A DNA stretch of 64,000 nucleotides from Ulva prolifera (lineage: Eukaryota; Chlorophyta; Ulvophyceae; Ulvales; Ulvaceae), in assembly GCA_023078555.1 (NCBI GenBank), contig CM041200.1, positions 8,114,807 through 8,178,806 on the forward strand, in the 5' to 3' direction. The position numbers were made by a program, and so were the translations under genes. Of the stretch, positions 7,938 through 64,000 are shown one piece after another. The notes under the pieces are model-generated. The model saw only the letters and a program-made list of their open reading frames with translations, was not told the DNA's origin and ran no database searches. The stretch's first letter is position 1. The number at the start of each line of letters is the position of its first letter.

Positions 7938-8072
7938 TGGCGCCCCAACACTGCATTGCAGTACGGACAAAGTGTGACGCCACACTGCCCGCACCTTGGC
8001 GTTGGAGAGGTGTGAATGGGCAAGTGAGGTATGAACAAGTGAGTTGCAGTATGGGCAAGTGCGGTGTGGCCT

Positions 8073-8420
8073 GAGGGCGCATGCATTTGTGTAGTATGGG
8101 CGAGGCGTGGCGTGAGGGCGCATGCATTTGTGCAGAATGGGCAAGTGCGGTGTGGCCTGAGGGCGCATGCATTTGTGCAGAATGGGCCAGTGAGGTGTGG
8201 TCTGAGGGCGCATGCATTTGTGTAGTATGGGCGAGGCGTGGCGTGAGGGCGCATGCATTTGTGCAGAATGGGCCAGTGAGGTGTGGCGTGAGGGCGCATG
8301 CATTTGTGTAGTATGGGCGAGGCGTGGCGTGAGGGCGCATGCATTTGTGCAGTATCGGCAAGTGCGGTGTGGCCTGAGGGCGCATGCATTGGTGCAGTAT
8401 GGGCCAGTGGGGCGTGACGC
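8073..8420 (+). repeat. Minisatellite, 8 units of alternating 41 and 45 bp
   Basis: Units begin GAGGGCGCATGCATT at 8073, 8114, 8159, 8204, 8245, 8290, 8331 and 8376, giving spacings 41, 45, 45, 41, 45, 41, 45. The 41-bp type continues TGTGTAGTATGGGCGAGGCG; the 45-bp type continues with TGTGCAGAATGGGC and an AGTGNGGTGTGG block. Units are directly joined with no spacers, so this is not CRISPR. The long minus-strand frames over it (His/Cys/Pro repeats) follow from the repeat itself. Confidence 0.92.
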
Positions 8421-43300: not shown

Positions 43301-46300
43301 TCACCACCCCATGAGCCAGAACGCTTCACGCAGCCACGAGCGCGCCTGCTGGCACTGAGCCGAGCCCTCCAGCACCTCCTGCTGCGCCGCCAGCAGCCAC
43401 GATTCCAGCTGCTGCAGCAGCGCCCCCGCCAGCCGCACCCCAGCCACCTGCTCGCGCTGCCGCAGCACCGCCCGCTGAAGCCGCCGCAACCGCCGCCGCC
43501 GACGGTCAGACAGCGGCAACGCCTCTGCTGCCGAGACCTGCGCCAAGAGGCTCTGCACACCGGCATTCCCACTGCCTGCGCTGCCACCGCCACCACCTAT
43601 GAGACACTCCTGCAGGGTTTTCTCACCGACCAAGTTCCGGGCCGCTGAGACGGCCATGCGCACCGGCTGCCAACATGGCGCACCCCCTGTCCCGGTATGG
43701 GACTGCGTATCGCCGGCTGCGACAGTGTCACACGTGCTACGCTTCCTGTGGCCACGGCTGCGCCGCTGCCGCTGCGGCGCCTCTGAGTCGGCGCCTCCAA
43801 AATCCACCCCGAAATCAAACAATACGGTCGCCGCGACAGCCTCCACGAGGGTCGGGACGTGTGCCGGAGTGCTCTCCACCGCAGCATCCACTGCATCGTG
43901 ATGCTGTGCCGTGGCGCTCGCTGTGAAGTGGCTGTGGCGCGGCGCGGCCGTCTGACCAGCCCCAGACGATCGCTGATCTTTATTCGCACGCGGCCGCTGG
44001 CGTTTCCACCACTGTGCCAACATGTCCAAGTCTGGCAGCCCAGCCCCCTCGGCAGCCCCACTGGATGCCGTACAGCGGAGTCCACCACCACTGTCTACAT
44101 TCAGAGCACCGAACTCCGGGCCCAGTAGATCCACCGCTTGCCCTTCCTTGGAAGCAGGCCGTTGTTGTCTCATATCTCCGGCAGAGGCCATTGCGTTGCC
44201 TCCGAGGTCGGGTGCTGGGGTGATTCGAGACGAACTTCTGCTACGAGCGGCCGTCCTGGTGCGACACAGCCCGGGCAGCAGCATCCTTGCTAGACTGTCG
44301 AGCCAAGCAAGAATCGGCCCGCCCCAGAGCCGACGCGGGCGCCTCCTGCCTATGCACGAGCAGTGTGAGTGACCCTGCAACCCGCAAGTTCTGCGTCAAC
44401 AGATGCACGCATACGGCACAACACGCTCAGCGCTTGCCTCAGCAGTGAGCCAGCACACTCTAGGAATGCATGTTGCTGAATAGATCCAGTAAGACTGTAC
44501 AGCCTTTACGAAGATGGGTTCCGCTGCGGCCGGCAGCTCTGGCGAAACGAATAACGCATAACTATGCAAACGTATTCGAAGTTCTGCTGCAAGGGCGAGT
44601 GAGGGCGTCTGCACAAACAGAATCAAGCAGCAGGATCGCAGGTGCGCTATGTCAAAGATTGCGGCCGTGCACTGCCTCTGCATGTCTCGCGTAGGGATCT
44701 CTGCCGCGCGCAAAAGATAGGATGCTACCTGCGCCTCGATAGCAACGAGCGCCGCCTTCAGCCGGGCCACGCGCCGCCGCTGCTCGCTGTGCCGCACACG
44801 CTCCACGACGCGCTTCACCGCGCCCAGGCTGGAGCGCTCAGCACTCTCGGCAAGAGGCCGCATCTGCTCTTCGCCAGGAGCCTCTGGCAGCGCAGCGAGG
44901 AGGGTCGGAGGGTGCATGTGGTCCGCCGCGGTGGCAAAGGTGACAGGGTGAGGCAGGAGAGGCGGCAGCCTTGCGGCAGGGTTGGGAGCAGCCCTGGGCA
45001 GCGCCAGAGCGTCCGCTGTGGCGGAAACCTCTGACGGGTGCACCATGGACGCCCCTCTGGCGCCGCGGAGAAGCATGCTCGCCAGGCGCGACATGGTGAA
45101 GCGTGTTGAGCCGCGTATGTGGCGGGGGAACATCGGGGAAGCACAGGCTGAGGCGGCTGTCTCGCGTTCCATCCGGCGTAGCGTCTGGATCGCCATCCAC
45201 CTGCATATCGGCCCATGTGATCACTCATGAGTCAACAATCACACGCGTGCCGTGGGGACCTACTGAGTTCCATCCGACAGTAGCAGCCGCGGAGCTGCGC
45301 ATCTGTAGAAACACCGCAGGGTCAATCAGTGCGAAGACAGGAGTCTTTGAGAGACTAGTAGCTGTGGATCTACAGCAGAATATAAATCGATCATCCGTTA
45401 ACTCGTTGGCACATATGGCCAGAGCACAATCGTTGCAACTCAGAACCGTGGCACCTCCCAGCACTGACTCATGCATCATGTCAGGACACATTGGAGAGGG
45501 TATACAGGAGAGGCGCACCGTGCTTGCATGGTGCACATGAGTATGCTGGCAGCGCTGTGCGCTTCCAGCGCATCCCCAGCAGCAGCTGCCCCCTGGCCCA
45601 CTGTGGCAGCTGCCCCCGCACCCACCGTAGCAGGGCCTGTGCGCCCGCGGCCGGCAGTCATAGCCACCGGCACCTTCCACCGCAGCTGCGACTCCCGCCG
45701 ACACGACACCCCCCGGTCCAGCGCCTTTGCGATGAGCGCCGCACGGATCAGGGTGCCCAGCAGTGTGCGGCCCTGCGTGCCGCGCCGCGACAGGCCGCTG
45801 CGGCCGACGAACCGCAGCACCCTGCGCTTGCTGGTGCACAGCAGGCGCGCCAGCAGGCGCAGCGCAAGCAGGGACTGAGCACTGCTAGCGAGCACCTCTG
45901 ACAGCCACTGCGTTGCCGGCGAGGCTGCGGAGGTGGGCGAGGCGGCCGTTCGGTGGCTGTTGCGGCTGCGGGTGGGCAGCCGGACTCCACGGTCGGCGCT
46001 GCCGAAGAGCTTGAGACGCTGCAGAGGCGAGTGTCGTGGTGAGCAGTGGCCATGCAGAGTTTAGGTGAGGGCATGGGTGAATGCCTGATGCATCTACGCA
46101 GCCTGCTCTAATTGTGGGCCATGGATCCACCGTTGCAGCCAGTTGGGGCCCGCTTGTCGTGAGTGATCAGGATAACAGACTACCGGTAGTCAGGTACCGC
46201 TGCACGCTGTAACATTTCACGACCACTGAAGAGCTTCGCATGTGTGTGCCCGCACTGGCCGTTGAAGCGAGGTGACGAATCTGGCACAATCGCATTGCCT

Positions 46301-49300
46301 GTGAGATTGAGCAGACCTGCAACGTAGAGAGCTCGGCACCCCAGCCACTATGGTCTGCAGTGGAGGCATCCCCGGATTTGGCGATGCTGCGCTTGCTGAG
46401 GTAAGTGTCGACGAGGATGGAGATGACAAAGTTGGAGAAGATGATTGTGAACATGAAGGGGAACATAAACTGGGCGATGTTAGCACTCACGGCCGCGACG
46501 ATGCTGCTCTCTCGGGCTGGGGGGGCCAGAGCGTCCTTGATGCCAAGGAACGATCCTGCACAGTGCATGGGCAGATGTGTCACACCATATGCATGGCAGC
46601 CCTGCAGCTCAATGGAAACGCCGCGCATCACCTTGACGTCAGCAGAACATCAGATTGGACGATTCGAAATTTTCAGAGTCATGATGCTTGGGCCATCTCA
46701 ATTGGATGTACCAATGTTTGTCCGCGTATACTTCTTAAGCCCCCTGCCCCCTGCCACTGGTGTGCGGCATAACTGATCGCTCCCATGGCCAATTCTCTTC
46801 CCTCTTCCCTACTTAATTAAGTATACTTTAAAGATTAAATACTCCCTCCTGCAGTTCATCAACGTACACACAACACACTGGACCTGTTTCTGAGCGTGAG
46901 CCCGAAAGGTGCACCGCACCAGTGACCGCGCCGTTCAGCATGTAGGAGGGCAGCAGGCGGGCGCTGCTCATGCGCTCGTCCGCAATGCCCCAAAGCATGA
47001 GCACCAGGCTCATGGGCACCATGAGCACGACCGTCACCAGCAGGACCTCAAGGAAGGGCACCAGCGACGCTGCCAGTGCTGTCGTGATGACCCCGACCCA
47101 GGGCAGCGCCCCGAGGGCCTGCAGCGTCTGCAGCATGAGAAGAGCTCCCGCCGCGGCCTGCACGCATCTGAAGAAGAGCCACGCGTCGCCAGCAGCTTCT
47201 GCGGCCGCCTGTAGAGCACGTATGTTGTAAGCTACCACCACCACCACTGGCAAGTCATTACATATGTACAGTCACCAACAGCCTGTCTCAGGGGTAAATC
47301 GTAATCAAGACCATAGATGCACAGGCGGCTTCCTCTACGTCACCCTGCATGGCCGCCGGCCGCGACACAATACGCAGTGCCAGTGCAGTGCCACATTCAC
47401 GATACGCATGTGTAGGCCTGCCATCACGTGCATCCGATGAGTCATTGCAAGGAGGAATAAAAACAGGAAGAGAGGTCTTTGTTCGAACAAAGAACAAACA
47501 GATGCATGCTTTCAACATCACACCCATGCAACTCAGCCAGTCACGCCGCAGCTAACATACACGCGTTCGTGCGCAACCATAGCGCACAAACGCCCCATAG
47601 CGCACTGTAGTAGCTCGCACCAGCAGCTCCGCAAAGCGGTCCACCTGGGCCGAGTCATCCCTGAGAGACCACAGCGGAACGTCCACCAGAGCTGCGGCGA
47701 TGTCGACAATGCCCGTGACCGCCTGCACGCCCACCTCACACACCGTGCTGTTCCCGCTTCTGTGCGCCGCCTCAACCACCTCAAGCTGTGCTCGTCGCAG
47801 CAGCGGTGACGCAGCAGCCTTCGCCGGCAGCAGCCGCCGCACCGGCGACGCCAGGTCATGGTACGCATGCGCCAGCAGGTACTCAGACGCGTCCGTCCCC
47901 GCCGTGATGCTCTCTGCACTCTGTGCGGAATGGAAGCCTCTCAGCAGGTCCGATGCCTGGCTGCTGTACCGGGCTGACACTGTAAGGGATGCCACCAGGC
48001 CCACGGCCGTTGCGATAGCGGCCAATGCCATCCAGCCGTGACGCCGCGCAGGTGCACTCCGCACTTGCGGCGGCCACAATCCGCTCGCCTCCGATTCGCG
48101 ATAGCTGAGTCCATACGGGATGTCACCATCGACAGATTCATACAGAGGGCCTCTCGGATGTGCTCCATGCACACTGGGACCCCCACCGGCTTCCACGCCA
48201 GACCTTCTGCGGTCAAACGCTTCATGGTCGCCCAATCCGCTGCCCCTTTCGCCAATTATCGCGGCAGAGGCTGCCGCGTAGTGGCCGCGCGGATCCGCTC
48301 CGTCGGAGCCGCATTCTTCCAACAGGCCACTTGTCAGAGGATTGACACCACCCTCGCAACCGAAGCCAGGCCCGAATAGCGACCCAGCAGGGTCTCGGCT
48401 AACGTAGTGTGCTTGGATATGCGGGCGTGCAGGCTCAACGGCACTGCCACGGTAATCGTGAGAATCAGAACCTCCCAGACGCGCGGGCTCAAAGGCATGG
48501 CCGCAGTGCCCGTGAGGGCCGGAATCTCCCATAAGTATTGCCCGGCTGCCGCCACTCATGCGAGGAGTGGCCTCGCTGGTGGAGGCATGGGGTGCAAGCG
48601 CTGCGGTCCGACGCCTCTCGGCTGACTCAGCCACAGGCTCTCCGCCACGACTCCCCACAACGATATCAGCAACTGTGTGTATCTGTGCGAGTGCTGCAAG
48701 GCCCCAATCAGCTCTGCGGGGGGCCTCTGAGCTGGCGTCTGACCGCCTTGCAGCTTCACATGCACCCACACCGACTGCAGCGCGCCCGCCGCCATCCGGC
48801 TGCGCAATGTAAAGGTAGCAGACGTATGCGGCATTGGCGGCAATCAGCAGCAGAGACAGGGCTGCGCTTGCACCGCCGAGCGTCAGGCTCGCGTCGGCCA
48901 GGGGCGCCGTGGAGACGTGGGCGGTGCCGCGGAAGCTCCCGGCCGGCAGCGCGTGGATGTCGAAGCGCCAGAACGCGACAGAGGCAGTGGCAGGGTTGTG
49001 CGTTGCGAGGCAAAGGCGGAGGGTGTGGGAGTGCTCATCGAGGAAGAAGCCGTCCCGGAGCGTGCGCCACAGCTCGTGCACCGTGTGCAGGTCTGACGTC
49101 ACCTGCACGCCATCGCCACGCTTGGCTGAAGTCACCTGTGGTCACGCAGACCAATCAAGTGCCGTTTGTCTAGTGCCCGGCCTGAAGCATACAGTGGCAG
49201 AACTGCTGTATTGTTAGATTCTGGGGGCGCACCGGGAAGAAGACAGGGAAGCCGGGGGGGAAGCCAGGCACCGCCCGGGGGAAGAAGGCGGCAGGGTAGC

Positions 49301-52300
49301 CGACGGCGGTGAGGTCGTCGCTGCCGGCAGAGGTGTTGTAGTAGCGGTCCTCTGCACCAAGCGCGTCTGCGGAGAACAGACGGCTGCTCGGGTTGAACGC
49401 AGGGTCCTGCCCGAACGGGCTGACCTCCGAGCTTCTCTCCGCTGCGAGGCTGCGGGTGAAAGCCCCGCAGTCGAGCCGGAGCTTCGCGAACGTGCTGCTA
49501 CAGCCCTTGGCCATCGTGTTTGGTTGCCGGGTCTGCAGGAATGGCTACTTGAAACAGTTTTGAATGGAACTTGAACTGCGGTGAACCATGGTCTGATGTA
49601 ACAGCTTGCTGGGTAGTCACATGCATGTACGTCAGCATCAGGCATTGCTAAGTCATCTCATTTGACTTACAGATTGGGTCCAATGGGTTGAGGACGGTAT
49701 AAAAGCTACCCCCTCCGTTTCAGGAGGTCGTGGGTTCGATTCTGCGTGCGGTTTGGGGACCGAAACGGCCGTACGTGACCACCTCGCTTAGCACAGCAGG
49801 AGGCCCTGTGAGTTGCGTACGGTCGTCTGAGGGGGTTTTCCAGGTGGTTTACCCCTTCGGCATACGTGGTCCCGTTAACTCGGAGTTGTCAATGTCCAAT
49901 AGGATACGGCTCAGTAAATTCAGATTTACTTAACAGAAGCTAGCATGGCTGAATAAACAGTTGAGCAGAAGGATGCGTGGCAGGATGCGTGGGTGAATCC
50001 GCACCTGGTGCAAGAAGAGACCGCCCAGCAGCACATTGCCGAGCCCCACATACCGAGGCACCACCACGGCGCCCTCCTTCCGCGCCCCAGTAACATCCCA
50101 GTCGTCCACCGTCCACCCGAGCCCCTCAATCGTGGATGTCTGCACCGCAGCCCGCGAGCCGCCTGTGCCACTGGAGCTCTGTGCGGCTGCTCGGGCCTGC
50201 AGCCGCCTCGCCGCCCCCTCTCCCCGACTGCCGCCGCCCAAATCCACCAACAGCACCATGGTAGAGTTAACTTTGGCGCTGTCCTGTCGGAGTGCCTGTA
50301 TGATGGGCAGATTCGCAGGAGACGTGCCGTCCGCGGAGGCGGCTACGCCCGAGTGGCTGCGGAGGCTGTAGGCATAGGCTCCCGCGCAGGCGAATTCGAT
50401 ATCCTCAAGAATGGTGGCCACTGCAACGTTGTTCAGCTTCTCTGAAGCATCAATCACCAGCGCCTCGGTGGTGGCAAACACCTCCAGCACCGAGTCGGCA
50501 ATGTTGCAGCCCAGGGCGTCTGTGTTCGCCTCTTGCTCTAGTGCAGGCATCTCCGCAAACCTCTGCAATCTTTCAAACATTCTCATACCATAGGAGCACT
50601 TGCAGTGGCACGTACGCTGCACCATACCACAGGGACACCGCCCACCACCACAGCTCCGGCTTAGTGTCGTTTGCAGACGGGCCTACAGGTATCACACCAG
50701 CATCAACGCCGTCTCTTGGGCATCCTCCTGTGTCGCCGCGAGCAGTGCATTCAGCCCCGCTGCTTGCACCTCCTCCGCTGTCAGCACCCTACACGCATCC
50801 CCGCGCACAAATGAGCTGTCCAGTGCCATTCCCACGATCGCAGCCATCGTCTCCTTGTCCTCCTGCAGCTGCCACGCCGCATACAGACCGGAATCCCCCT
50901 GTAGCAGCCCCAGCTGACTGAGGCACATCGCTGTGGCCTCGCCAGTTGCATTTCCCCTCAGCCCGAGGGTGACTTGCATCTGCGCGGTGAGCTTCGCTGA
51001 GCGACCGTCCGCCGCCGCAGCTACAACCTCTGCATGCAGCAGCACACGGTCTGCAAAGCTATCGCACGCAGGCACCTCCCATACGCCCTGCCAGTACGCT
51101 GCGAGCAGAGAGCGCGCCAGCGGCGATGTCACGGCCGGGCCCTCCAGCCGCGCTGCGAGCTCCTCGACAGCTGCATTCGCCCCAACGTACCGGTCAGCGA
51201 GGGCGATGCGGTACACCAGGTCGGCCACAGACAACGTCTCCCACACGGACACTTGGACTGCGAGGGGCGCAGCGTCCTCACCACGGCCGTCTGTTGCTCT
51301 GAGCTCAAACTCGTAGGGCACTGCCGATGGCGGACACTCCCCGGCAGTCACCGCAGCGGCAGAACATGCAAAGCAGGCTCCGGGCGCAGCTGCAAAGCCG
51401 TCGCAGCTGCTACTTGCGGCCATCAGCCTGGGTGTATCAGCTAGCATCAACTCTGTGTGAACTGTGATCACGCAGGCGACACCGTTCGCGTCGAGGCCCT
51501 TCTTGGCAGCGTCATCGATGCAGGCAGGCAGCGGCAGCGCGCCGCGGCGCCCACACGGCGCACGAACTACTAGAGTGCCTGCCCCGCTGCCATCGTAGAC
51601 ATGATCCATACCAGGCAGCAGCAGCGACGCATTTACAATGATTGTGGGGGCTGGGGCGGTGGCTTCAGCGGGTGCGGAGGGCTCACGTATGGCGCAGGGT
51701 GTAGGCCCGCACTGCGCCGCTGCTCCCGAGCAGTATATGTCTGCAAAGGATGGGCATGGAGAGAGCAAGGAGATTGTCTTGGTGAGGGTGGCTTGAGCGG
51801 CGGGCATGTGAGAGTCAAAGACCACGAACGGCAATTCCCAGGTGGACCCGATTGGGGCACTGTCACTGTTGATGCCGCAGCCCTGGATGCCTGAATATAC
51901 TACCAAGTGTGAATTTGAGGCGAGGCTGCAAATTGGATTAAATACATGAATCATGCATGTTTCACGTGTACATGTAACGATTAAATGTTAGCTGTCACTC
52001 AAGTGCTCTGCACATGCATCCCACCCTCGTCATTTGACAGTCCACCCTCTTGGGTTGGCGGTGTCAGGTCATGTTACCAGTATCTAGATGCCTGTGTAGG
52101 CTGATTGCTCTGAACAGGCTCTTCATCATCTACATTGCGGTCAAATACACAGGCCTAAGGCCAGCCTGGTACCTGGCCACACCGAGCACACGAAGCCCAC
52201 AGCAGCACGGAGCATGTCACCCACACAATGACAGCGTGCACACCTTTCACCTGGAACTCGTGTCCCGGGCAGCCGAATGCTAAGCAGTCATCGGGCGGGC

Positions 52301-55300
52301 ACGCGAGCACCCGGGCCGTCAGGTCGCCGTCCTCCGGGTCAGTCGCCAGAACGCCGGACTCACACTTCAGTGACACGTCGGCTGCTTCATCGGCACTGCA
52401 CTTGCTATATACCAATCCCCCCTGCACCGCCACCTGTGCGATCTGGCCTTGTGGTAGCAGCAGCCGGGGCGCATGGTTGCCCGGGACCTGCAGCGCACCG
52501 CCTGCAGAGAGGCACAGCTCTGCGAGGGAGCACCGGAGGTCTGCGCATGAGAACTCGATCAGCCCGCAGGTGGGGTAGACGACGAGGCGGCGGGTGACGG
52601 AGGCCCGCAGGGAGGTGCCAGGGACGGTCACTGAGAAGGTGATGGAGTACACCCCGGGGGTGGAGGTGTCGTAGGTGCAGCCCTGGAGGCCGTGCTGGCT
52701 GAAGCGCACACCCGCCTTGCAGGCCTCCACGTAGGCCGTGATGTCCCCATCGATGGAGTGGAAGGCCCTGGCTCCCTGTGCGACAAAGAGCATATGAGGA
52801 CGGAAGTATGCGTTCGTAGAGTCGGCCCACGGACTGACAATCATGCTAACCTAGGCTGAGCCACGCACTGCCGCTTTGTATGTGTATGGCGCACGGCACA
52901 ATCGTACAAGCAGGATAGTTGTTTATCGTATCATGTGCATGTGGCGGCTCACCTGGTCGCAGACCATTCCGACAGGCCTCGGCGTCGGGCACTTGCTGTA
53001 CAGCTCGCCTTCCTCCACAAGCACCTCCTCGGCGCCCACGAGCTCAATCACCGGCTCCGGAATCTGTACCGCTGCAGCTTCATGCGCCATGCACAGGCCC
53101 TGAACGCTGCAGAACGCCCGGCCACTGGCATCCACGCAGCGTTGTTCCCCAGCAACGCACACAGCATGCACTGCACGCACCGCGTCCGCTGTGTTCCCAG
53201 CCGAATCGCTGACGCTGTACCGGATCACGTGCGGGCTTGCGGGGTCGGTGGGGCCGCCGGTGAGCACGGCCGCAGTGACCGCCGCCGTTCCGGCAGCAGC
53301 GACCGAGTGGGAGATATCCCCATCAATGTCATCGGTCGCTGCCCAGCCAGGCTCAGCATACGGCTGCCCAACAACGACCGATGTCACTACTATCTGCACC
53401 CCCCCATTGTCCAGGACCTCGTCCGCGTCTTTAGCATTCAGCACCAGTTCTGGCGGTGTGGTATCCACAGGTGGCTCAAAGATGTCCACAGATGCTGGAG
53501 ATGCAGCTGAGTCACCGATTGTACTCGGCAAACACAGCCCCCGGTCGCTGCATTTCCCATACTCCCAGCAGCGTATCTCACCGTCAGGGCAGCCGGTGTC
53601 GACGTAAATCCTGCGAGTCTCGTACGGGCTCTCATTTCCGGCATCATCCCGAGCCTGATACACAACAAGGAAAGGGCCGTGCACCGTGGTGGACCCAGGC
53701 CGCAGCGGGCCGAGGGCAGTGGCTGAGGTGGCAGCAAGCGCCACATCCACATCTGCGATACCAAGCGCTGCAACAGGAAGAATGACCCCTGAGGGAGGAT
53801 CGACCGCAAAGGCGCCTGCGTCGGTGTACGTGCCACCAAGGTGAATCGTCTGCGACACAGAGCCAGACACCTGGATCTTAGGAGGCAGGGTGTCCCGAGG
53901 GAGTGCGACTGCCGCTGGGGCTGCGAAGAGACGAATGTCAAAATTGAGCACCGATTCAGGTGGCGACGGGGGCTCTGGAGGCGCAGGAGAAGGCTGTGGC
54001 GCTGCAGGTGCAGGAGGAGGCGGGGGCGCTGAAGGTGGAGACGGCGGGGGCGCTGGAGGCGGAGACGGCCGGGGCACTGGAGGCGGAGACGGCGGGGGCG
54101 CTGGAGGTGGCGACGGCGGGGGCGCTGGAGGCGGAGACGGCGGGGGCGTTGTTGGTGATGGAGGAGGAGGGGGCTGTGGGGGAACAGCAGGACTTGGACC
54201 GGGGGAAGATGTAGGCGATGGAATCGCTGCAGGCAAAGGCGGTGCTGGTAGCGGGGCTGACGGGGACGGAGGCGTAGTCGCCATACCTGGTGGTGAAATT
54301 GGAGGAGGGAGTTGTGGTGGAGGCAGCGGCGCAGGGGGTGGTTGGGCTGGTGGTGGCGTGGACTGAGGCGTGGTGGGTATTGGTGGTGGTGGGAATGGCG
54401 ATGGGGACGGCGGTGGGGGTGTTGGTGGGGGCGGGCTTGCGAATTCTGGCGGAGGCGGCAGGACACTTGGACCTGATGGGGGAGGAGAGGGCTCTGCAAC
54501 AGTGGTGGGAGGTGGTGGAGGGGGAGGAGGGGGTGGTGATGGTGGCGGTGAGGGGGGGGGAGATGGTGGTGGAGGCGGAGGAGGGGGTGGTGATGGTGGC
54601 GGTGAGGGGGGGGGAGAGGGAGGTGGAGGCGGAGGAGGGGGTGGTGATGGTGGCGGTGAGGGGGGGGGAGAGGGTGGAGGTGGTGGAAATAATTGGGGAG
54701 AGGGAGGCGGTGGGGGTGGTGGCTGAGGCAGCGGCGGGGAGGGCGGTGGTAGAGAGGGTGGCGGAGGGGGAAACGCGAAGCCAGCGCCCGCGACCAGCGC
54801 CTCCATTGCGGCGCCGACGTCTGCGCTGCTGAGCGCGCGCTGCAGCACGTGGACCTGCCCTACCCGCAGGCTGCCGGCCATTAGCTTCCAGCCTTGATTC
54901 AGCGGCTGCATTAATGTGAGGGTCGCCCATGAGGCAAGCTCAGCCGCGAGCCACGGGGACGGCGACGGCGCGTCGAGCGGCGCCGCGCCGCCGCTGACAA
55001 ACCCGGACAGCTCGCCGTCATGCGTGACGGTGCACGCATACACCTCCCACGCCCCCGCGGAGGCCCGCGCAGAGATGCGGACCGCCGTGTCGATGACATC
55101 ACCCGAGAGCACCTGGCAGACGATGTCCTGCGAGTCAGCATCGACCGCGAGGCGCAGGCTGCGGTAAACAGATCCGCTTTCCTGCATTGACACCTGTGCG
55201 ATGGCGGCTCCACAGTATGAGACGGTGGACTGTGCATGCGCGAGGAGCGTGTACCCGCCGGCACTGCCGACGTCTGCCACCGCGAACGGCTGCGAGGCCA

Positions 55301-57375
55301 CGGGGTTCGTGCCCGCAGAAACAGAAAGGTAGAAGAGCGGGTGCGGGGGCATGCCGCTGAGTTCAGGTCGCGGGCCTTTGGTGGAGGCGGTGACGGCGTA
55401 TGGGGACCCGACGCCCCATGTCCGCAGGTACGTTGTGGGTGAGCCAAGCCAGTCCGTATTGTCATAGGTGTCGCGCGGAGAATCTCGGGTCAACTTGATG
55501 AGGTGCCGGGGGAGTGCAGCGCCTGCACGCAGTGACTGCAGTGGTGCCACGCATGCATGACACACTGTCCAGATCTGCAGAGGAAGTAGCAGGGCCCCGC
55601 AGGCATGTGCCGTCAAGGACGTGGATCTACAGCACAGCCAGTGTCTACGACAGCGCTTCAGTGCACACCTGGGAGGCATGATCAAGTTGAACCCAGGCAG
55701 CACCATCGTGCAGCACAGACCTGATTAGCTCAGGCGGTTGCATGGCAGAACACAAGGACAGACGTTGCAGCACTGCACTCAACAGCATGCGGAGCTACGC
55801 CTGTAGAAGTCAGTTGTTGCAACTGCGCATGCAGCTGTATGTATCCGAAACATGATATTGTGTAAGGCCCAGGCCCATGCTGCTCGCACATGCCACTGCC
55901 TTATTGGCTCCATGACAAGCGAGGTGCTGCGGCCGTGCGTGTGGCATGGAGGGCTTTCGCACTGGCCGAGCGTACCTTGGACAGTGGCATCGCAAGGTGT
56001 CATTCCAGCTGCGCTGGCAGAGTCGCTGAAGAGGCACTGGTCCAGCTGCATCATGTCCTGGACTGACATCGGGAAGTCAAAGAGGCCGAGATGCTTCAGG
56101 TCCCAGGAAGTGCAGGCGCCATGGTAGCCTCCAATCGACATACTGCCAAACAGTGTGTCTGGAAGCTCCAGGCCTGAAGTATCACTCTGCCACTGCAAGG
56201 CTGTCCCTCATGTAAGCCCATGTGGTTTGTAAGAGCTACCATATCGGGGATGCTGTGAATATACACAGATGTTCGAACATACAAGCAAGCTGACCCCCTC
56301 CAGAACACCGCAGTTTCCTACCAGACAGCGTATGGTGGACCATTTACTTTGCTCGCTTCGGTGGAGTTCCTCACTTGCACACTACGTAAACAAAGGCTGA
56401 ACAGCTTGCTGAGGAAGCAGACCTGAGTGTGCGCAGACTGTGAATTCCAGGTGACGAGCGATGTGTGCTTCCAGATGTCTAGTATTTTCAGAGCTGGTAT
56501 AATTCGGAAGGTGAGTGTGGCAAAGTGTCCTTCTGAGATCATCCCAGGTGCGGTGTAGGTCTGCCACATCACCGCAGAGCTCAACCATAGCTGCAGCCGC
56601 ACGCAGTTGCAGGAAGCATCAAATTCAATGTGGACCTTACGATCTGACACAAAGTCATCAGCCACAAATAGTGTCTGGTTCGATGCAAATGAATTGATTC
56701 GGAATGTTGCAGAGATGGACAAGCCCCCATGATGCTGAAACCGGATAATCTGCGCCGTTGTTGTTGACAGGCTCTGACATGAAGTGCTGGAGATCTGGTC
56801 CAGCCGCATGTAATCCAGGTCCACGGATGTGTCGGCCCAAGTGGGGATCGAGCCTTCTGACGGGGCGAACCAGATGTCCCCACATTGATGATGCGCAGAT
56901 TGGCTGGTCAGGAATGTGAACATCACCAGAACATCAAGCGGGTCTGCATGCAATTGTCACACTCAGCGGAGGCACTGGCACATGAACTACATGTTCGGCA
57001 CCCTGTCCTGGTCCACAAGAATGTGCTGCTCCCATACACAAGCTGGTCCACATGCTCCGCCCTTTCTTTTGAGATCCAAGACTAATACAGCCGATTTCAT
57101 TGAATGCTGTGCAGGACTTTGTACTTTGCTCATGCAGACAGGTTTGGGCACACAGAGGCATCCGCTTGGAGCAGGGGCAAATAGTGACTTTAGCCCCACA
57201 CAAATCGGTCACAGCTCAACACACCTGCTGGCAATGTACACGTCGTGAGCTTCCTCCCGTGCAGTGCCTGCTGGGCGTCAGCAAAGATTCTCCCATCTGG
57301 CAGCACAGACCACCAGCCAGCCGCAAGCACTGCCGTGACCAAGTAGGCACAGGCCCTTCCAAGCAAAAGTTTCAT
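43301..57375 (-). CDS. Giant LamG-like / proline-rich / polycystin-type channel protein
   Basis: Fourteen exons join with matching phase at every junction: 57225-57375, 56423-56943, 55976-56192, 52953-55522, 52251-52775, 50698-51882, 50005-50562, 49233-49532, 47588-49102, 46920-47208, 46317-46555, 45519-46018, 44673-45200 and 43301-44345; 3,380 residues. A signal peptide (MKLLLGRACAYLVTAVLAAG) is followed by LamG/concanavalin-like units (to ~540; LRVGQVHVLQRALSS is typical), a PPPSPPP rod (~545-815), and at least three Ig-like repeats with DIDGDI, SIDGDIT or DPEDGDLT, Y-V-D--GN and Cys-rich ends. A REJ-like Ala-rich part follows, then a polycystin (TOP) domain at ~1725-2080 (GLGWTVDDWDV, YVGLGNVLLGG, FFLDEHSHTLRL), a membrane segment at ~2082, a long loop, and the channel: S4-S5 region LQTLQALGALPWVGVITTAL, PFLEVLLVTVVL, then S6 IFSNFVISILVDTYL. 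The ~690-residue tail is basic and Ala-rich. A role in mechano- or chemosensory cation flow is inferred from the family. No S1 helix is evident before the TOP domain. Confidence 0.85.
49680..49932 (+). mobile_element. SINE-like retroposon with tRNA-type B box
   Basis: Sits antisense in the giant channel gene's intron 49533-50004. It contains GTGGGTTCGATTCTGC (49731-49746), close to the RNA polymerase III B box GGTTCGANTCC, preceded by GGGTTGAGGACGG, a weak A-box-like string. The 3' part (TTCGGCATACGTGGTCCCG, AACTCGGAGTTGTCAATGTC, CAATAGGATACGGCTCAGTA) is shared with 62950-63024 and inverted 8901-8958, and ends in ATTTACTT. The pol III head is inferred from a single box. Confidence 0.5.
53960..54780 (-). 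repeat. Proline-rich rod coding repeat (PPPSPPP)
   Basis: Within exon 4 of the giant channel gene. About 270 codons are mostly Pro with Ser, Ala and Thr, in units such as PPPSPPPSPPPPPP (centre about 54500-54700) and APPPSPPPAPPPSPP (54010-54150). Similar rods occur in hydroxyproline-rich green-algal wall proteins (pherophorins). The DNA is a G-run-rich minisatellite, so all antisense frames are open and Gly-rich; those are not genes. Confidence 0.9.
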
Positions 57376-58466
57376 GACGACCACATCGATATGGCATAAA
57401 TCTCGACAGCCACCAGGAACGTGATCTCCGCCCGACTTATGTGTTCCGTCGCATCGTCAGTACGTCTTGAGCCTTTGATCGCGGCCGGCCAAAAAGCAAC
57501 GTGCTGATGGCGAGCTGGCGACACTGTGACACACGCCATTATAATTTGTGAAGTCGCAGCGGCCCAACTCGTGTCGAGTCCGCAAACGCATCTGTCTGGG
57601 AAGCAAAGCGGAGCAGGCCAAGTTCGCGACAGCGTCTAACGTGAATAGCTCAAGTGCATGCAGTGGCTGAAAGCAGTCTGCGTTTGTGTAGCTGCTGATG
57701 CGGTCATACGCGATTTCGATTGTGTGGAGGTGCTGGCACATCCCGGCGCATCGGAAATGGACATCAGCCAAACAGTGACCTGAGGGACACGCCTATCGCC
57801 GAGATCATCCCGCGCGCTCGACGTACAATCGTCGTACAGCACAGTGGCAGAGAGCCTGAAGTTGAGAGTTGAGGGTCTCTGTTTATGAAAGCTTCGAGTG
57901 ATACAATTACAGACGTCGGGGAAGCACGGCAAGAGAGTATGACAGCAAGGTCATCACCTGTCGATACAAGCCGTGGATTCAACATCTGCAGCTGTAGAAG
58001 ATAGAAGTGCTCGGAGCAAACCGTCAAAGCTATCAGAGGGTCAGCGCAGTCACAGATGGCACCAATGAGATCGCGCGTTGCGTGTTCACTCTGGTAGTTC
58101 ATACCGCCATTGCCCTCATGTGGTACATGTGCATGTTGCTCCACTTCTGCAGCTATGATTACACACTGTTGAAAGGCTGACCCTGCCATGTGGTCAAGTG
58201 TGAGGATTGGGTAGCGGACTCGAGCAGTGCCATCGATATACGGAAATTCCAAGCCCAAACCAGCAACTCACTCACAGCATCGCATTGCACAGCTATGCAA
58301 GTGCGGCAGAATTGGACAACGATCGCACAGCAGCTTGACTGAGGCCTAGACTGAGGCTCATATGCTGGCGTGCTCATGAGGCCCCAATGTGCTGTCTACT
58401 TCGATAGCGCCGTTCGATCCCTACTGCACAGACCCCCAGTGATTCTAGCCATGACATCATCACCAG
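57376..58466 (-). other. Spacer with one unassigned ORF (57764-58258)
   Basis: Between the giant channel start and the HMCES stop codon, all on the minus strand. The 57764-58258 frame encodes a peptide-like sequence (FPYIDGTARVRYPILTLDHM, later CADPLIALTVCSEHFYLLQL) but begins at TTG, not ATG, and no family or flanking exon was recognised. It could be an exon of a small unknown gene; otherwise this is the giant gene's promoter. Confidence 0.25.
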
Positions 58467-60470
58467 TCACAGTTTTTCTTCCTTCACATCCTCCTTTACA
58501 CTTTCAGCCTTCAATTTGGCCTGCTTGTGGGGGGCTTCAGATTTGTCATCGGCATTAGAAGGGCGCTTCTTGTTTTTGAAAAACGAGGCGATGTTGCCTT
58601 GCTTGAGAGGCTTCGAGCAGTCTTCCTCTTTGTAGCCTGGCTTGTTCATTGCCCTAGTGACCGCGTGCCACACAAGGTCATCGCCATCGTACGGTGTGCA
58701 TAAACCCTGCAGTATTCACAGACCGGTGCTGCGAAGTTGAAGTATTGAGGTGAACAACTGAAATGGTTGGGCAGCAGTATGCACAGGATGCGCCAACAGC
58801 AGACGAGCGGGGCTTGAGGAACTGCATTGAGACTGGGACCTCACGCTTGGCACACACGTGATCACGTCAAGGCCCTGAAGCAAATGTGCCGTAGCACATT
58901 AAATTGTTATTAAAATTGATTGTAATCGTGGTAATGAATCATACTGAAGCCAGCATGTCAAATGCTGTGCCGGCAGAGCGTGCACAGCTGAAGCACCGCC
59001 ACAAAAGCACGTCCGCACTCACCCCAGGGGCAGCCCATTCGAACAGCCACATGCGTTGTTTCAGCTTTTTGTGGTGAAGTGTCAGCAGCAGAGGACCAGC
59101 CATGCCATGGAGCCGGCATGTGGCAAGAAACGTCCTGGCGCTTACAGACAAGGCAAGTGGACTACACTAAGCGGAATTCCATCATCACCCAGCTACATGC
59201 TGTCTGTGTCAGACATGCTGTGTGTCTGCGGCAGGATACATTAACATCTACAGCGTGTGCTTCAGTGGCGGTAGATCAATACCTGTATGTTCTTGTCAAT
59301 ACCAGATATCCAATCCATACAAGCCTGATGGTCAGGCAGTATGACAGGCATGCGGTCATGAAGACTTGAAAACCGCTTTGTAGCATCCGTGGTCAGAATA
59401 GTGTGGGTCATCATGGGAGCGTCACTACCCTCCTGCTTGCCATCATACCACTTGTCAAAGAGGCCTGCATGGCAAGAGAGCTCAGCGATGCATGCGCTAA
59501 GGCAACAGTGAGTCCAGCAAGCTAGTAGAAGTGATGTCAGGTCGTGTCTTGCAAATTTGTGGAGCCTGTACGCAATCACATGAGCTCTTGACGAATCCTC
59601 TGCTGAATGACCATCCACTGACCTGAAGTCTGGTAGGGTCACCTGAACGTCTAGCAGAGTGCCGCTGGTCAGAATTGTGGAAGCCTTCTAGCAAGGCCTT
59701 GCTCCACAAATACAATCATGATGCTACGTTAAGCTCTGACACATCGGACCGATGTGACCAATCGCTTTGACAGCACGACACTCGAATTAATGGATAAGTG
59801 AATGCTGAGCACACGAGGGGATGCCATTGGTATCCAGGACATCGTGAACTGCGCAGCGGGTTACTTGTTGCAGAACATGGCCATACCAAGCAAGCACACA
59901 CCTGCACAGAGCATTGGCCTGTCCTTGAAGTGAATGTAGTACGGTTGCTTTCCTTTGTGTTCATCTTTCCACTCATAGAATCCATCAATACATACAATGC
60001 ACCTGTTGGACTTCAGCAGTCTGCTGAAAATGGACTTGGTCGGAACAGTCTCGCTGCGGGCGTTGAACATGCGGAAAAAGTTGGGCTTCTCTCCAGCCTT
60101 TGTAAAGGAAGGCACAAGCCCCCACCGCATGCCCTCAAGAATGAACGCTTGGTGGTTGTCTTCAGCAAACCGCAGAACACCCATTCGCGCCCCAGGGCTA
60201 CAGTTCTCCGATGGGTAGTATGCATCCCTGCACTCGCCGTGATCAGATCCGGGTGGCCACAAAGGCTTTGCAAAGTGTGGCCAGAATCACGAGGGTCTCA
60301 GCCTGTCCTGGCAAGTCACCCGTGATGCATGACCATTACAATCTGAGAAATAACCAGGGTGCTGCAATATACTCTGAGACGTCTTCAGTCCGCAGGTCCA
60401 GCCGATATGCTTCTTTGCATGATTCGGCCATGCGTTGAGGTGCCATGCGAAAGCGTGTTCTTCCGCACAT
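58467..60470 (-). CDS. HMCES: HMCES/SRAP-domain abasic-site processing protein
   Basis: Forms a covalent crosslink with abasic sites in single-stranded DNA to protect stalled forks. Four exons join in phase: 60355-60470, 59902-60227, 59283-59464 and 58467-58706, 287 residues. The start is fixed by MCGR: Cys2 is the catalytic nucleophile of SRAP proteins after Met removal. Conserved parts follow: AYYPSENCSPG, MRWGLVPSF, FNARSET, CIVCIDGFYEWK (active-site Glu), YYIHF, LCAGLFDKW, THTILTTDA, LHDRMPVIL (active-site His) and PYDGDDLVWHAVTRAMNKP. The tail has QGNIASFFKNKKR, a perfect PIP box (Q-x-x-I-x-x-F-F) with basic residues, followed by a Lys/Glu-rich end. A frame at about 59018-59110 in the third intron was considered as an extra exon, but direct splicing fits family alignment better. 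The gene lies between two divergent channel paralogues. Confidence 0.93.
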
Positions 60471-61142
60471 GACTCGAATTGGACATGCCACTGCCTAACA
60501 AACCAACGGCAACACAAGGTGGCAAGCCCAAGAGTTCTGCGCAGTCGTCGCGACCATGGCCACTGCGATCTGTGCATCTTTGCAACAGAATACATCATAT
60601 ATACTTTTGAATCGACGCACAATACAATCTATTCCGATCTGTCAATCACAAATCGCATGCAGAAACGGCATGCAACCCAGTTGGCGCGGTATGCCCGGCG
60701 CGACATCTCGCAGACGGTCTGGACGTCTTCACACGTCTGGACCAGCTGGATGCCAGGTGCGCCATGATACGCTAGGCGACCGAGAAACAGCCGCTTGTGA
60801 TGTTAGAAAATTGCCTTACAACTGCAATGCATGTAGATACAATGAATGATGTCATCCAACTTTCACAGCGTTCACATTTTGTGCTGCAGCGTTGCCTGTT
60901 GCACTCGATGACCGTAGACAGATGCCTCTCGGAACTAAGCCTGCGAAGACCGCATTGAACCTGGTCGCAATCGCCAAATAACACTGCGTGTGTCTGCTGA
61001 AGTGCGATTGGCACACTGGTACAATCAGCTTGTGCGCCCAGACCAGCTGCAGGTACACGCGTGGTTCCGAAACACGTCGCGCTGGGAAGTGGACGGGATA
61101 TCGAACACTTTATGCTATAATGAGACCAACGTAAATGTAGTC
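60471..61142. other. Divergent spacer
   Basis: Spacer between HMCES (minus) and the second channel gene (plus); it should hold both promoters. No exon or named promoter element is visible. Confidence 0.45.
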
Positions 61143-64000
61143 ATGATTATGGCTGGTACAGCCTGTGCGTACCTGATCACGGCGGTGCTCTTCGTTGGCT
61201 GCCACTCTGTAGAGCCAGATGCACCATTCCCCATTGTCGCCAAGCGGCCATTGCATGGTAGGCAGCTGACAGCATGTACACTACCAGCAGGTGCGCTATG
61301 ATGCGTGACAGGCCTTTAAGGCTGTTACCGAGGCCTGCCTCTGCCACTGCTGGAGTTTTCGGCACTTGAACGCTTGTGCGAGCTGAAGACACAGTTGCAG
61401 CATCCACCGACCGTCAGTGCTCGAATTATGCATGCTCAAGGACTCTCGACAGTAAACTTGCTGCACGTTTTGGACTTTCACCAACGCAGCATGCAGCAGA
61501 CACGATCGTGTCACTGCGGAGTGTGATCAGCTCTATGCTTGCAGATCCGCTGGATGTGCTGGTGATGTTCACGTTTCTGGCCAGCCAGTCCACGTATCAT
61601 CAATGTGGTGATAAGTGGTTTGAACCATCAGCAGGGTCGATTCCAACCTGGGCTAATGCTTCTGTGGATCCAAGTTATATGCGTATGGAGCCAGTCTCAG
61701 GAACAGTGTGTCAACAATTGTCGACAACAGATGCAAAGACGATACGATTCCAGCATCATGGAGGCCTCTCCGTCTCAGCAACTTTCCGAATCAATTCGTT
61801 CACGTCCAGCCAGACGCTGCTTAGCGCTCATGACTACGTCACAGACCGAAAAATCCTCATCAGATTTGATGCTTCTTGTGACTGCGTGCGCCTGGAACTT
61901 TGGTTGAGCTCTGCAGTCATGTGGCAGACCTACACTGGACCTGGGACAATCTCGGAAGGTGATTTCGCCACACTCACCTTCAGAATTGTGCCAGCCTTTA
62001 ACATTCTGGACATCTGGAAGCAATCGTCGGTCGTCACCTGGGATTTGCAGTCTGTGCACACTCAGGTCTGCTTCTCCAGGTGTACCTCCAGTGATTGTAG
62101 TTGTAGCTCCAGTGTGGGTGCCTTCCCTACAGCTACCAAATGCACTTTATATGTCTAGTCTACAATGAGTCATGCTGTGTTGCTTAATTTTTTTTCTTGC
62201 ATAGCAGATCTGTTGCTCACAAATTCAGAGCAAGTACAGCCAATCATCCCTACATACATGCCTGCCCGGGCCTTGTCAAAACCGCTTCATTGCTAGGGTC
62301 AACGCATGCAGAATTCCTAAAACCTTTGTACCATGACAGTTGGAACAAACCAGATACATTGTGTCTCGGGTGTAGCTTTTGCAAAATCAGCGTGTGCGTG
62401 ATTAGCTTGCGCTTGAGAATCGCTTGCATGAGCTGTTCCGACTCAATGCAAGACATTGAAATTCATTCTTGTCACTGGTTGCTCACCCTGTCAACATGCA
62501 GAAAAGGCATGCGAAGTCCCTGTAGCCCGTGTTGGTGCCATTCTATCTATGACTAGCCACGCAGTGCCATGGCACTGGATCCATGTGACATGAGGGACGT
62601 TCTTGCAGTGGCAGAGTGACACGTCAGGCCTGGAGCTCCCAGACACGCTGTTCGGCAGTGTCTCCATCGGAGGCTACGATGGCGCCTGCACTTCCTGGGA
62701 CCTGAAGCACCTCGGCCTCTTTGACTTCCCGATGTCAGTCCAGGACATGCAGCAGCTGGACCAGTGCCTGTTCAGCGACTCTGCCAGCGCAGCTGGAGTG
62801 ACACCTTGCGATGCCACTGTCCAAGGTGCGCTCGGCCAGCGAGCACTAGAAATCCACACCAGGCCTCCAGCGCCGCTGCAGCACCTGCCGACCTCTCGTA
62901 GCCTCTCTGGTGACAGACCTACCTGCCGAGAGATACCACCATATTCGGCATATGTGGTCCCGCAAACTCGGAGTTGTCAATGTCCAATAGGATACGGCTC
63001 AGTAAATTCAGATTTACTTTACTTGACCATGAGTATGCCTGTAGCACAACTGCTGGCCGGAACACAAACGGACGTGATCCCACAGGCGCAGCCCTATTTC
63101 GTGAGATCCGCTATGTCCGATAAAAACCAGCAATTTGAACACATAGCTCCACTATGGTCTGTGCAGTGCTGCCGATGTCCCTGTGCTATGGCTACGTCAT
63201 CATGCGTACGTACATACCACATGCAGGTGCTGCACTCCCGAGGCACCTCGTCGACTTGACCCACGAATCGCCGTACACGACGTATGACTCCACGCTTCTT
63301 GGCGTCACCACCACCTACATGCAAACATGGGGCGTCGGTACCCCCTACGCTTCGTCAGCCCCCGCCAATGGCCCCAGACCCGAGTTCAATGGCTCGCTAC
63401 CCGGTCCCCGGTTCTCCTTGTCTGCGTCCGCTGGCACGACTCCATTCACGTCCGTGGACATCCAGCTCCCTGGCATCGGCAGTGCCGGAGGGTACACCGT
63501 CCTCGCGCACGCACAGTCCACTGTCTCAAACCGAGGAGCCATCATCGCGCAGATCATGATAGAATACGACGATGGCAGACAGCGCCGCCTCCGCCTCTCA
63601 GTAAGTGCACACACGCAGGACATCGTGTGCCAGGTGCGCACCACGGAAGTGGACGCTAGTGTCCGTATCGCGCCGGCGGAGTCCTCCGGCGCATGGGTGG
63701 CGTATGCATGCACTGTCACGCATGATGGTGAGCTGGCTGGATACGTCAGCAGCGGCATGGCGCTGGACCCACCCGTGCCATCGTCCTGGGTCACTGCAAA
63801 CCTGGGTCACTTCGGAAAGATGAAAATCGGCAGGCCGCTCAACGGCGGGCTGAACTTCATGGCGGGTACCCTGCGTGTCGGGCAGGTTCACGTGCTGCAG
63901 CGCGCCCTCAGCAGCGCAGACGTCGGCGGCGCAATGGATGTGGTGATCGCAGGAGCTTCCTCTGCCTTGCCTCCGCCGCCACCATCTGCGCCACCACCTT
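61143..64000 (+). CDS. Paralogue of the giant LamG/polycystin-type protein, 3' truncated by window end
   Basis: Four exons are visible: 61143-61290 (signal peptide, MIMAGTACAYLITAVLFVG, ending TLPAG), 61545-62065, 62609-62825 and 63228 to beyond 64000. Exons 2 and 3 are the same length (521 and 217 bp) as their counterparts in the minus-strand gene, and the first three exon junctions have the same phases (1, 0, 1). The encoded N-terminus is a LamG-like unit: CGDKWFEPSAGSIPTW, IRFQHHGGLSVSATF, WLSSAVMWQTYTGPG, then GGYDGACTSWDLKHLGLFDF (sugar-binding-like strand end), YMQTWGVGTPY and LRVGQVHVLQRALSSAD. The window ends as the proline-rich rod begins (ALPPPPPSAPPP). The rest, including any channel, is outside. 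Either ATG (61143 or 61149) could start it. Confidence 0.85.
62950..63024 (+). mobile_element. Retroposon fragment in the paralogue's third intron
   Basis: Matches 49855-49932 closely: TTCGGCATATGTGGTCCCG, AACTCGGAGTTGTCAATGTC, CAATAGGATACGGCTCAGTA, AATTCAGATTTACTTTACTT. It lies in the intron 62826-63227 in the sense of the host gene. The 5' part with the B box is missing or diverged; the tail carries two TTTACT-type units. Confidence 0.6.

Follow-up and report, generated by a model that had tools for sequence, protein, structure and literature searches.

A putative S1-less polycystin subunit of the MST3 type with a proline rod in Ulva prolifera

The gene and its head-to-head paralog

The window analyzed here is a 64,000-nucleotide stretch of the genome of the green alga Ulva prolifera (GenBank assembly GCA_023078555.1, contig CM041200.1, forward strand), written C5:8114807-8178806 in contig coordinates; positions without a contig name count from its first letter, and the genome searched comprises 88.9 Mb on 44 contigs. 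The window holds a real gene, complete on the minus strand from 57375 to 43301, with 14 exons, 10,098 coding nucleotides including the stop, and a protein of 3,365 amino acids. This protein joins LamG-like modules, a proline rod and Ig-like repeats to the membrane part of a polycystin, and by its sequence it appears to be a further member of the S1-less polycystin subunits typified by MST3 of Chlamydomonas reinhardtii. An earlier sequence-only reading of the window had proposed one complete 14-exon gene here, with 10,143 coding nucleotides spliced by hand; the single gene is borne out by the gene model, GT-AG borders at all 13 introns and a neighboring paralog, and the length is corrected to the figure above. 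The features of the gene, all on the minus strand, are as follows.

57225..57375, minus, exon 1: start codon and signal-peptide-like N terminus (hydropathy, residues 8-26; paralog exon 1 at C5:8175949)
56423..56943, minus, exon 2: first LamG/ConA-like module, part 1 (paralog stop-free, dN/dS 0.14; LamG by analogy with sister modules)
55976..56192, minus, exon 3: first LamG/ConA-like module, part 2 (94% amino acid identity to paralog)
52953..55522, minus, exon 4: 2570 nt, open throughout its length and encoding the second LamG-like module, the proline rod and HYR/Ig-like modules
53961..54779, minus, proline rod: residues 545-817
52244..53960, minus, Ig-like block: Bact_surface_Ig-like and HYR, ending with exon 5 and spanning intron 4 (52776-52952); conserved in sister genes
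52244..52775, minus, exon 5: Cys-rich Ig-like
50698..51890, minus, exon 6: Cys-rich, then unclassified ectodomain with no REJ match
50005..50562, minus, exon 7: unclassified region, then first TOP strand RYVGLGNVLLGGLFLHQ at 50055-50005
49233..49532, minus, exon 8: TOP (polycystin) domain, N half
47621..49102, minus, exon 9: TOP C half, S2 (~48862-48806), long loop, S3 (~48034-47978), S3-S4 loop
46920..47208, minus, exon 10: S4, S5, pore region without LGD/E filter
46317..46555, minus, exon 11: end of pore loop, S6
45519..46018, minus, exon 12: cytosolic tail
44729..45200, minus, exon 13: cytosolic tail, with an extra interruption in paralog
43301..44374, minus, exon 14: cytosolic tail and stop codon

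Intron phases are consistent throughout, and the sole stop of the model is its end. The region was read in three frames and passed to a splicing program, with start and stop fixed by hand and codon scores derived from the gene's own long open stretches; the program recovered exons 4-10 at all three intron penalties and exon 11 at two of the three, while exon 2 was placed by hand and exon 14 was taken from the paralog. A low penalty over-split the gene into 57 exons, stronger penalties gave 12-17, and training without the rod split exon 4. A start of exon 9 at 49135 was rejected because the paralog has a stop at that place, and a start of exon 14 at 43951 was replaced by 44374 after alignment with the paralog.

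The ectodomain spans about 2,060 residues and begins, as in the paralog, with a hydrophobic N terminus, recognized by hydropathy alone and not by a signal-peptide program. The rod is 273 residues long and 63% proline, with 15 SPPP motifs and a longest proline run of 10, and no XXPXXPXXP is present in it. The Ig-like repeats match Pfam Bact_surface_Ig-like in three stretches (E = 1.9e-16) and HYR (E = 2e-5), with no PDB match for the block at E<=1. The two N-terminal modules are LamG-like by pattern. Neither they nor those of the paralog match any Pfam family at E<=10, and a search with them retrieves only the head-to-head pair; one of eight modules from sister genes elsewhere in the genome scores above the Laminin_G_2 cut-off (9.6e-5), and one more matches Laminin_G_3 at 7.1e-4, below the cut-off. 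For the LamG-like units of the sequence-only reading, LamG is thus a putative identity reached only indirectly, by way of the sister genes. A profile of 11 LamG-like modules found nothing relevant in the PDB, where the LamG-like pair and the exon 6-7 region of the window likewise had no match at E<=10.

The sequence-only reading had also named a REJ-like region and called the rod pherophorin-like; neither held, since the pieces scanned gave no match at E<=10 to REJ or to the pherophorin domain DUF3707 (one DUF3707 scan was run at E<=1). Pherophorins carry rods of the SPPP type, and the likeness is one of rod composition only. A genome-wide DUF3707 search was empty, as were its controls.

TOP and the helices S2-S6 are recognized by sequence comparison and hydropathy, confirming the earlier proposal that one protein unites a proline rod, Ig-like modules and the membrane part of a polycystin. 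Hydropathy reveals no S1-like helix ahead of TOP, the filter position reads MLNGAVTGSF (VTGS) instead of LGD/E, and the tail, of about 700 residues, has only a Death_3 match in Pfam (E = 1.2). Compared by hhalign with the PKD2 of the same genome in one-sequence searches, TOP aligns with probability 98.8 (E = 5.4e-17) and S4-S6 with probability 77 (E = 2e-5). Pfam PKD_channel and Polycystin_dom do not match the window sequence, and the PKD_channel match in exons 7-11 by which the sequence-only reading had proposed to judge the gene is literally absent. The sister genes and the profile searches given below overrule this absence: PKD_channel is matched in two of four family members (best E = 2e-7) and Polycystin_dom in two of nine members (best E = 1.7e-4), none of them the window gene.

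Blast against the DNA right of the gene revealed an inverted copy at C5:8175949-8190570, on the plus strand, head to head with the gene and 3.8 kb from its start. Its first exons fall within the window.

61143..61290 (C5:8175949-8176096), plus, paralog exon 1, by blast
61545..62065 (C5:8176351-8176871), plus, paralog exon 2, by blast
62609..62825 (C5:8177415-8177631), plus, paralog exon 3, by blast
63227..64000 (whole exon C5:8178033-8180218, leaving the window), plus, paralog exon 4, first part, by blast

All 14 exons are present in order in the paralog, and in all 14 the expected frame is the best-matching one and free of stops, which supports the gene model independently. Exon 13 is broken there by one further interruption, and the intron between exons 6 and 7, 135 nt long, has both splice sites conserved. 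Over 3,043 codons the two genes show nonsynonymous divergence (dN) of 0.16, synonymous divergence (dS) of 0.44 and dN/dS of 0.37; exon 10 is 89% identical, with dN/dS of 0.26, and exon 11 has 0.21. For 12 of the 13 introns, identical bases amount to 32-54% of whichever copy is longer; intron 4 is 92% identical. The dN/dS and intron identity figures were computed with the shorter exon 14 (start 43951). The rod measures 273 residues in the window gene and 149 in the paralog.

Divergence of the pair is patchy, with dS of about 0.2 in exons 3, 5, 7, 8 and 10 and above 1.1 in exons 2 and 11. Together with the 92% identical intron 4, this pattern makes gene conversion between the two arms likely. 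The 3.8-kb region at 57376-61142 lies upstream of both divergent genes and could contain a bidirectional promoter. Within intron 7, about 260 bp (49674-49931) are 89% identical to C5:8191922-8191665 and contain GGGTTCGATTC, which we take to resemble a tRNA-type B box; this stretch is perhaps a short interspersed element (SINE), and ARAGORN found no tRNA in the window.

A family of rod-bearing genes

Searches with TOP and channel sequences located seven further loci, on contigs C6, C2 (two loci, C2a and C2b), C3, C7, C8 and C4; the C7 locus was weak in the first search (E = 0.007) and gained support from later scans. Including the head-to-head pair, TOP is found in all nine members and S4-S6 in four of the nine, weakly in C2a. 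In eight of the nine (the pair and six of seven sister loci), the shared Ig-like block is preceded on its own strand by a proline rod. The rod stands 21 to 853 bases from the first Ig-block match in the six sister genes; at C4 the 20 kb fetched contain no rod, and the Ig-like matches come at the margin of this DNA. A single open frame covers both rod and Ig block in all rod genes but one, seven of eight, C8 being the exception, and LFAAPPPP follows the rod in C2a, C2b, C3 and C7 where the window gene reads LFAAPAAV. Across the fetched family DNA, eight of nine rod matches (two of them overlapping in C3) lie upstream of the Ig block and one lies elsewhere.

Is the fusion of a rod to a channel an accident of splicing? 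Six other genes place the rod before the same Ig-like block and TOP, and this repeated order argues that it is not. The family includes a convergent pair on C2, at C2:1605k-1614k (plus) and C2:1632k-1644k (minus), with different rod chemistry: one rod is made of PPEVPPPAV repeats, and the other runs from APAPSP into a linker rich in Gly, Ser and Asp.

Kinship with MST3 and candidate partners

The combination of a rod with a polycystin, which the sequence-only reading did not know as described, is not new, because Dai et al. (2024, PMC11015965) describe MST3 and seven similar proteins. MST3 is a poly(hydroxyproline) protein of the mastigoneme axis of C. reinhardtii whose PKD2-like domain is without S1, two TOP helices and an Ig-like domain. 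Dai et al. propose that a separate protein, SIP, supplies the parts missing from MST3, with one MST3:SIP pair joining three PKD2. Seven more C. reinhardtii proteins have incomplete PKD domains, with poly-Pro in all but one. This split-channel model rests on one species, predicted complexes and mutant proteomics, and its authors ask for crosslinking and structures (PMC11015965).

Profile searches place the Ulva family close to MST3. With a TOP profile of the family (A1), MST3 is the top PDB match (PDB 9B4H chain X, E = 1.4e-38), with animal polycystins at 0.05-1.2; it is also the top PDB match of family profile A2 (E = 1.7e-7), and homology to MST3 extends over S3-S6. PDB 9B4H is the deposition of Dai et al., and the length of its chain X equals the 8,572 residues of MST3. 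A profile of the seven other members retrieves the window protein at 3.1e-49, MST3 at 2e-37 and the genome's own PKD2 at 1.6e-22, and one built from the window pair alone gives MST3 at 2.6e-19 and the own PKD2 at 1.1. TOP of the window protein alone has a local score of 215 against MST3 (shuffles, 30.6 +/- 4.9) and also 177 against the own PKD2; the corresponding blastp bits are 46 and 32. A tree of 13 TOP domains gave no resolution.

MST3 (Cre06.g309951) and the window protein share a poly-Pro rod, a TOP that begins at the same strand, the lack of S1, S2-S6 and a long tail. MST3 has a signal peptide and an extracellular N terminus, and the hydrophobic N terminus of the window protein is presumed to be alike by analogy. 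They differ in scale and in detail: MST3 has 42 P13/P11(XXP)3 repeats binding MST1, and the window rod is not only far shorter but also without these repeats, which excludes an MST3 orthologue in the narrow sense. LamG-like modules stand where MST3 has C-type lectin. The seven other C. reinhardtii proteins, predicted to bind SIP (Fig. S7 legend), resemble the window protein in a large ectodomain and in a PKD2-like domain completed by SIP in models; they differ by description, the abbreviations of that legend naming LRR, SRCR, SEA and Cys-rich parts, and the sections compared stating no LamG-rod-Ig order (PMC11015965).

Other systems are more remote. PKD1L3 is the best animal match of the family TOP profile (E = 0.047). 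To our knowledge, PKD1 has no such proline rod. Like the window protein, animal PKD1 and PKD1L proteins set a large ectodomain with lectin and Ig parts on the membrane part of a polycystin, a likeness argued in PMC11015965; PKD1 differs by five further membrane helices (PMC11015965), and the window protein by having no REJ match.

The PKD2 of the genome itself, at C3:763352-769618, has S1, a Cys stretch, TOP, S2-S6 and the filter LLGE, and two other PKD2-like loci have the filters LLGD and IMGD. The window protein shares TOP and S2-S6 with this PKD2, which in contrast has its own S1, the beginning of TOP and an LGD/E filter, and no rod in the stretch read. A canonical PKD2 channel was hence rejected as an identity for the window protein. 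The S1/TOP-N part of PKD2 as query matches the three PKD loci and C3:618164-619233, with two more rows on C1 at E ~0.2, and matches none of the nine family loci. The match on C3 belongs to a locus, C3:618101-619299 (1.2 kb read), that encodes S1 and a Cys stretch and does not match the PKD2 TOP-to-S6 query, PKD_channel or Polycystin_dom. We regard it as a candidate SIP; SIP itself has 361 residues, one membrane helix and a likeness to the PKD2 N terminus, and occurs in various green algae (PMC10846610). Radial-spoke genes are present at two loci (E = 1.6e-38 and 1.6e-37), suggesting that cilia are likely available.

A polycystin at C1:12564k-12569k has S1 and a TOP helix, the TOP strand TTVLGPIRLRQLRV and, at C1:12568k, the filter VLDFDY; its N terminus as query found no SIP. 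Its TOP strand presumably resembles the animal type of PKD2 more than it does the algal PKD2 at C3:763k. With this locus, the filter position was read at four of five polycystin loci outside the family. Elsewhere in the window, open reading frames of at least 200 amino acids number 35 left of the gene and 12 right of it, and a Pfam scan of 10 of the 35 gave no match at E<=0.01. A tandem array at 8045-8416 repeats a 45-bp unit 8.5 times and shows higher-order periods of 86 and 131.

A possible mechanism and its alternatives

The protein is probably a PKD1-like accessory subunit of the MST3 kind that acts together with SIP and PKD2 to link a cation channel with a glycosylated rod. If MST3 is a guide, it would be secreted in a type I-like orientation with its N terminus outside. 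The missing S1 and first TOP helices would come from a separate small protein of the SIP type, and a tetramer would consist of one subunit:SIP pair and three PKD2. Once hydroxylated and O-glycosylated, the rod may form a stiff polyproline-II spoke of about 85 nm (at the 0.31 nm per residue that the tip of MST3 implies) that keeps the distal LamG-like modules off the membrane, and load or ligand binding there would be passed to the channel, much as thought for PKD1. The missing LGD/E filter suggests that the subunit shapes or gates the PKD2 pore and forms none alone.

The sequence-only reading had instead seen a mechanosensitive pore with its own rod, that is, a complete homomeric channel. TOP and S2-S6 homologous to polycystins and the large ectodomain would suit it; nevertheless, the protein has neither S1 nor an LGD/E filter, for which reason an accessory PKD1-like subunit fits better, and the three canonical loci of the genome do have the filter and match the S1 query. 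As the closest relative, MST3, is also proposed to need SIP and PKD2 (PMC11015965), we consider an independent pore improbable. Nor do we favor two neighboring genes joined by mistake or by an assembly fault, with an ectodomain in exons 1-6 and a channel in exons 7-14: the paralog repeats this order, as do sister genes on other contigs as far as their parts were found, and the short exon 6/7 intron keeps both its sites, which leaves a joining artifact very little probability.

Two further explanations leave the gene intact and change its role. The LamG-like heads could bind glycans of cells or of the wall in adhesion or mating, the polycystin remnant serving as anchor and sorting signal. LamG-like modules lie upstream of the rod in several members, the rods differ in length and make-up, and the filter is degenerate, all consistent with such a receptor; however, the low dN/dS of exons 10 and 11 places S4-S6 under selection beyond the needs of an anchor, and this explanation seems to us unlikely. 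Alternatively, the channel could be fastened by its rod to the cell wall, away from cilia, and serve there as a tension sensor. Rods of the hydroxyproline-rich glycoprotein type are wall material, and SIP genes are also found in algae that lack MST1 or lack cilia (PMC10846610), yet radial-spoke genes are present in this genome, and PMC11015965 reports MST3 along with three of the other seven C. reinhardtii proteins from cilia, so that a wall sensor, too, has a low probability in our judgment.

Building on the accessory-subunit reading, a broader idea is possible, though we hold it only tentatively. At least nine split polycystin subunits, eight with rods in view, may share one chassis (rod junction, Ig block, TOP and S2-S6), with the type and length of the rod and the lectin-like heads exchanged from one member to the next and S1 drawn from a shared SIP. 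The rods, about 85 nm (273 residues) and about 46 nm (149 residues) in the head-to-head pair, would then be rulers that place different sensing heads at fixed distances around a common PKD2 base, giving a combinatorial array of touch or glycan sensors.

Our literature search, which most subscription journals lay beyond, found no description of this gene or of a LamG-rod-Ig polycystin. New here are the LamG-like/rod/Ig build, a family of at least nine members in another genome, two closely related copies with rods of unequal length, and the co-occurrence of PKD2 with a SIP candidate. Because the head-to-head genes differ in their rods, they provide a natural test of what rod length does. If PKD2, a SIP-like candidate and nine TOP genes, eight of them with rods, stand together in a second genome, the split design would be an old and diversified means by which green algae attach long extracellular spokes to a polycystin channel.

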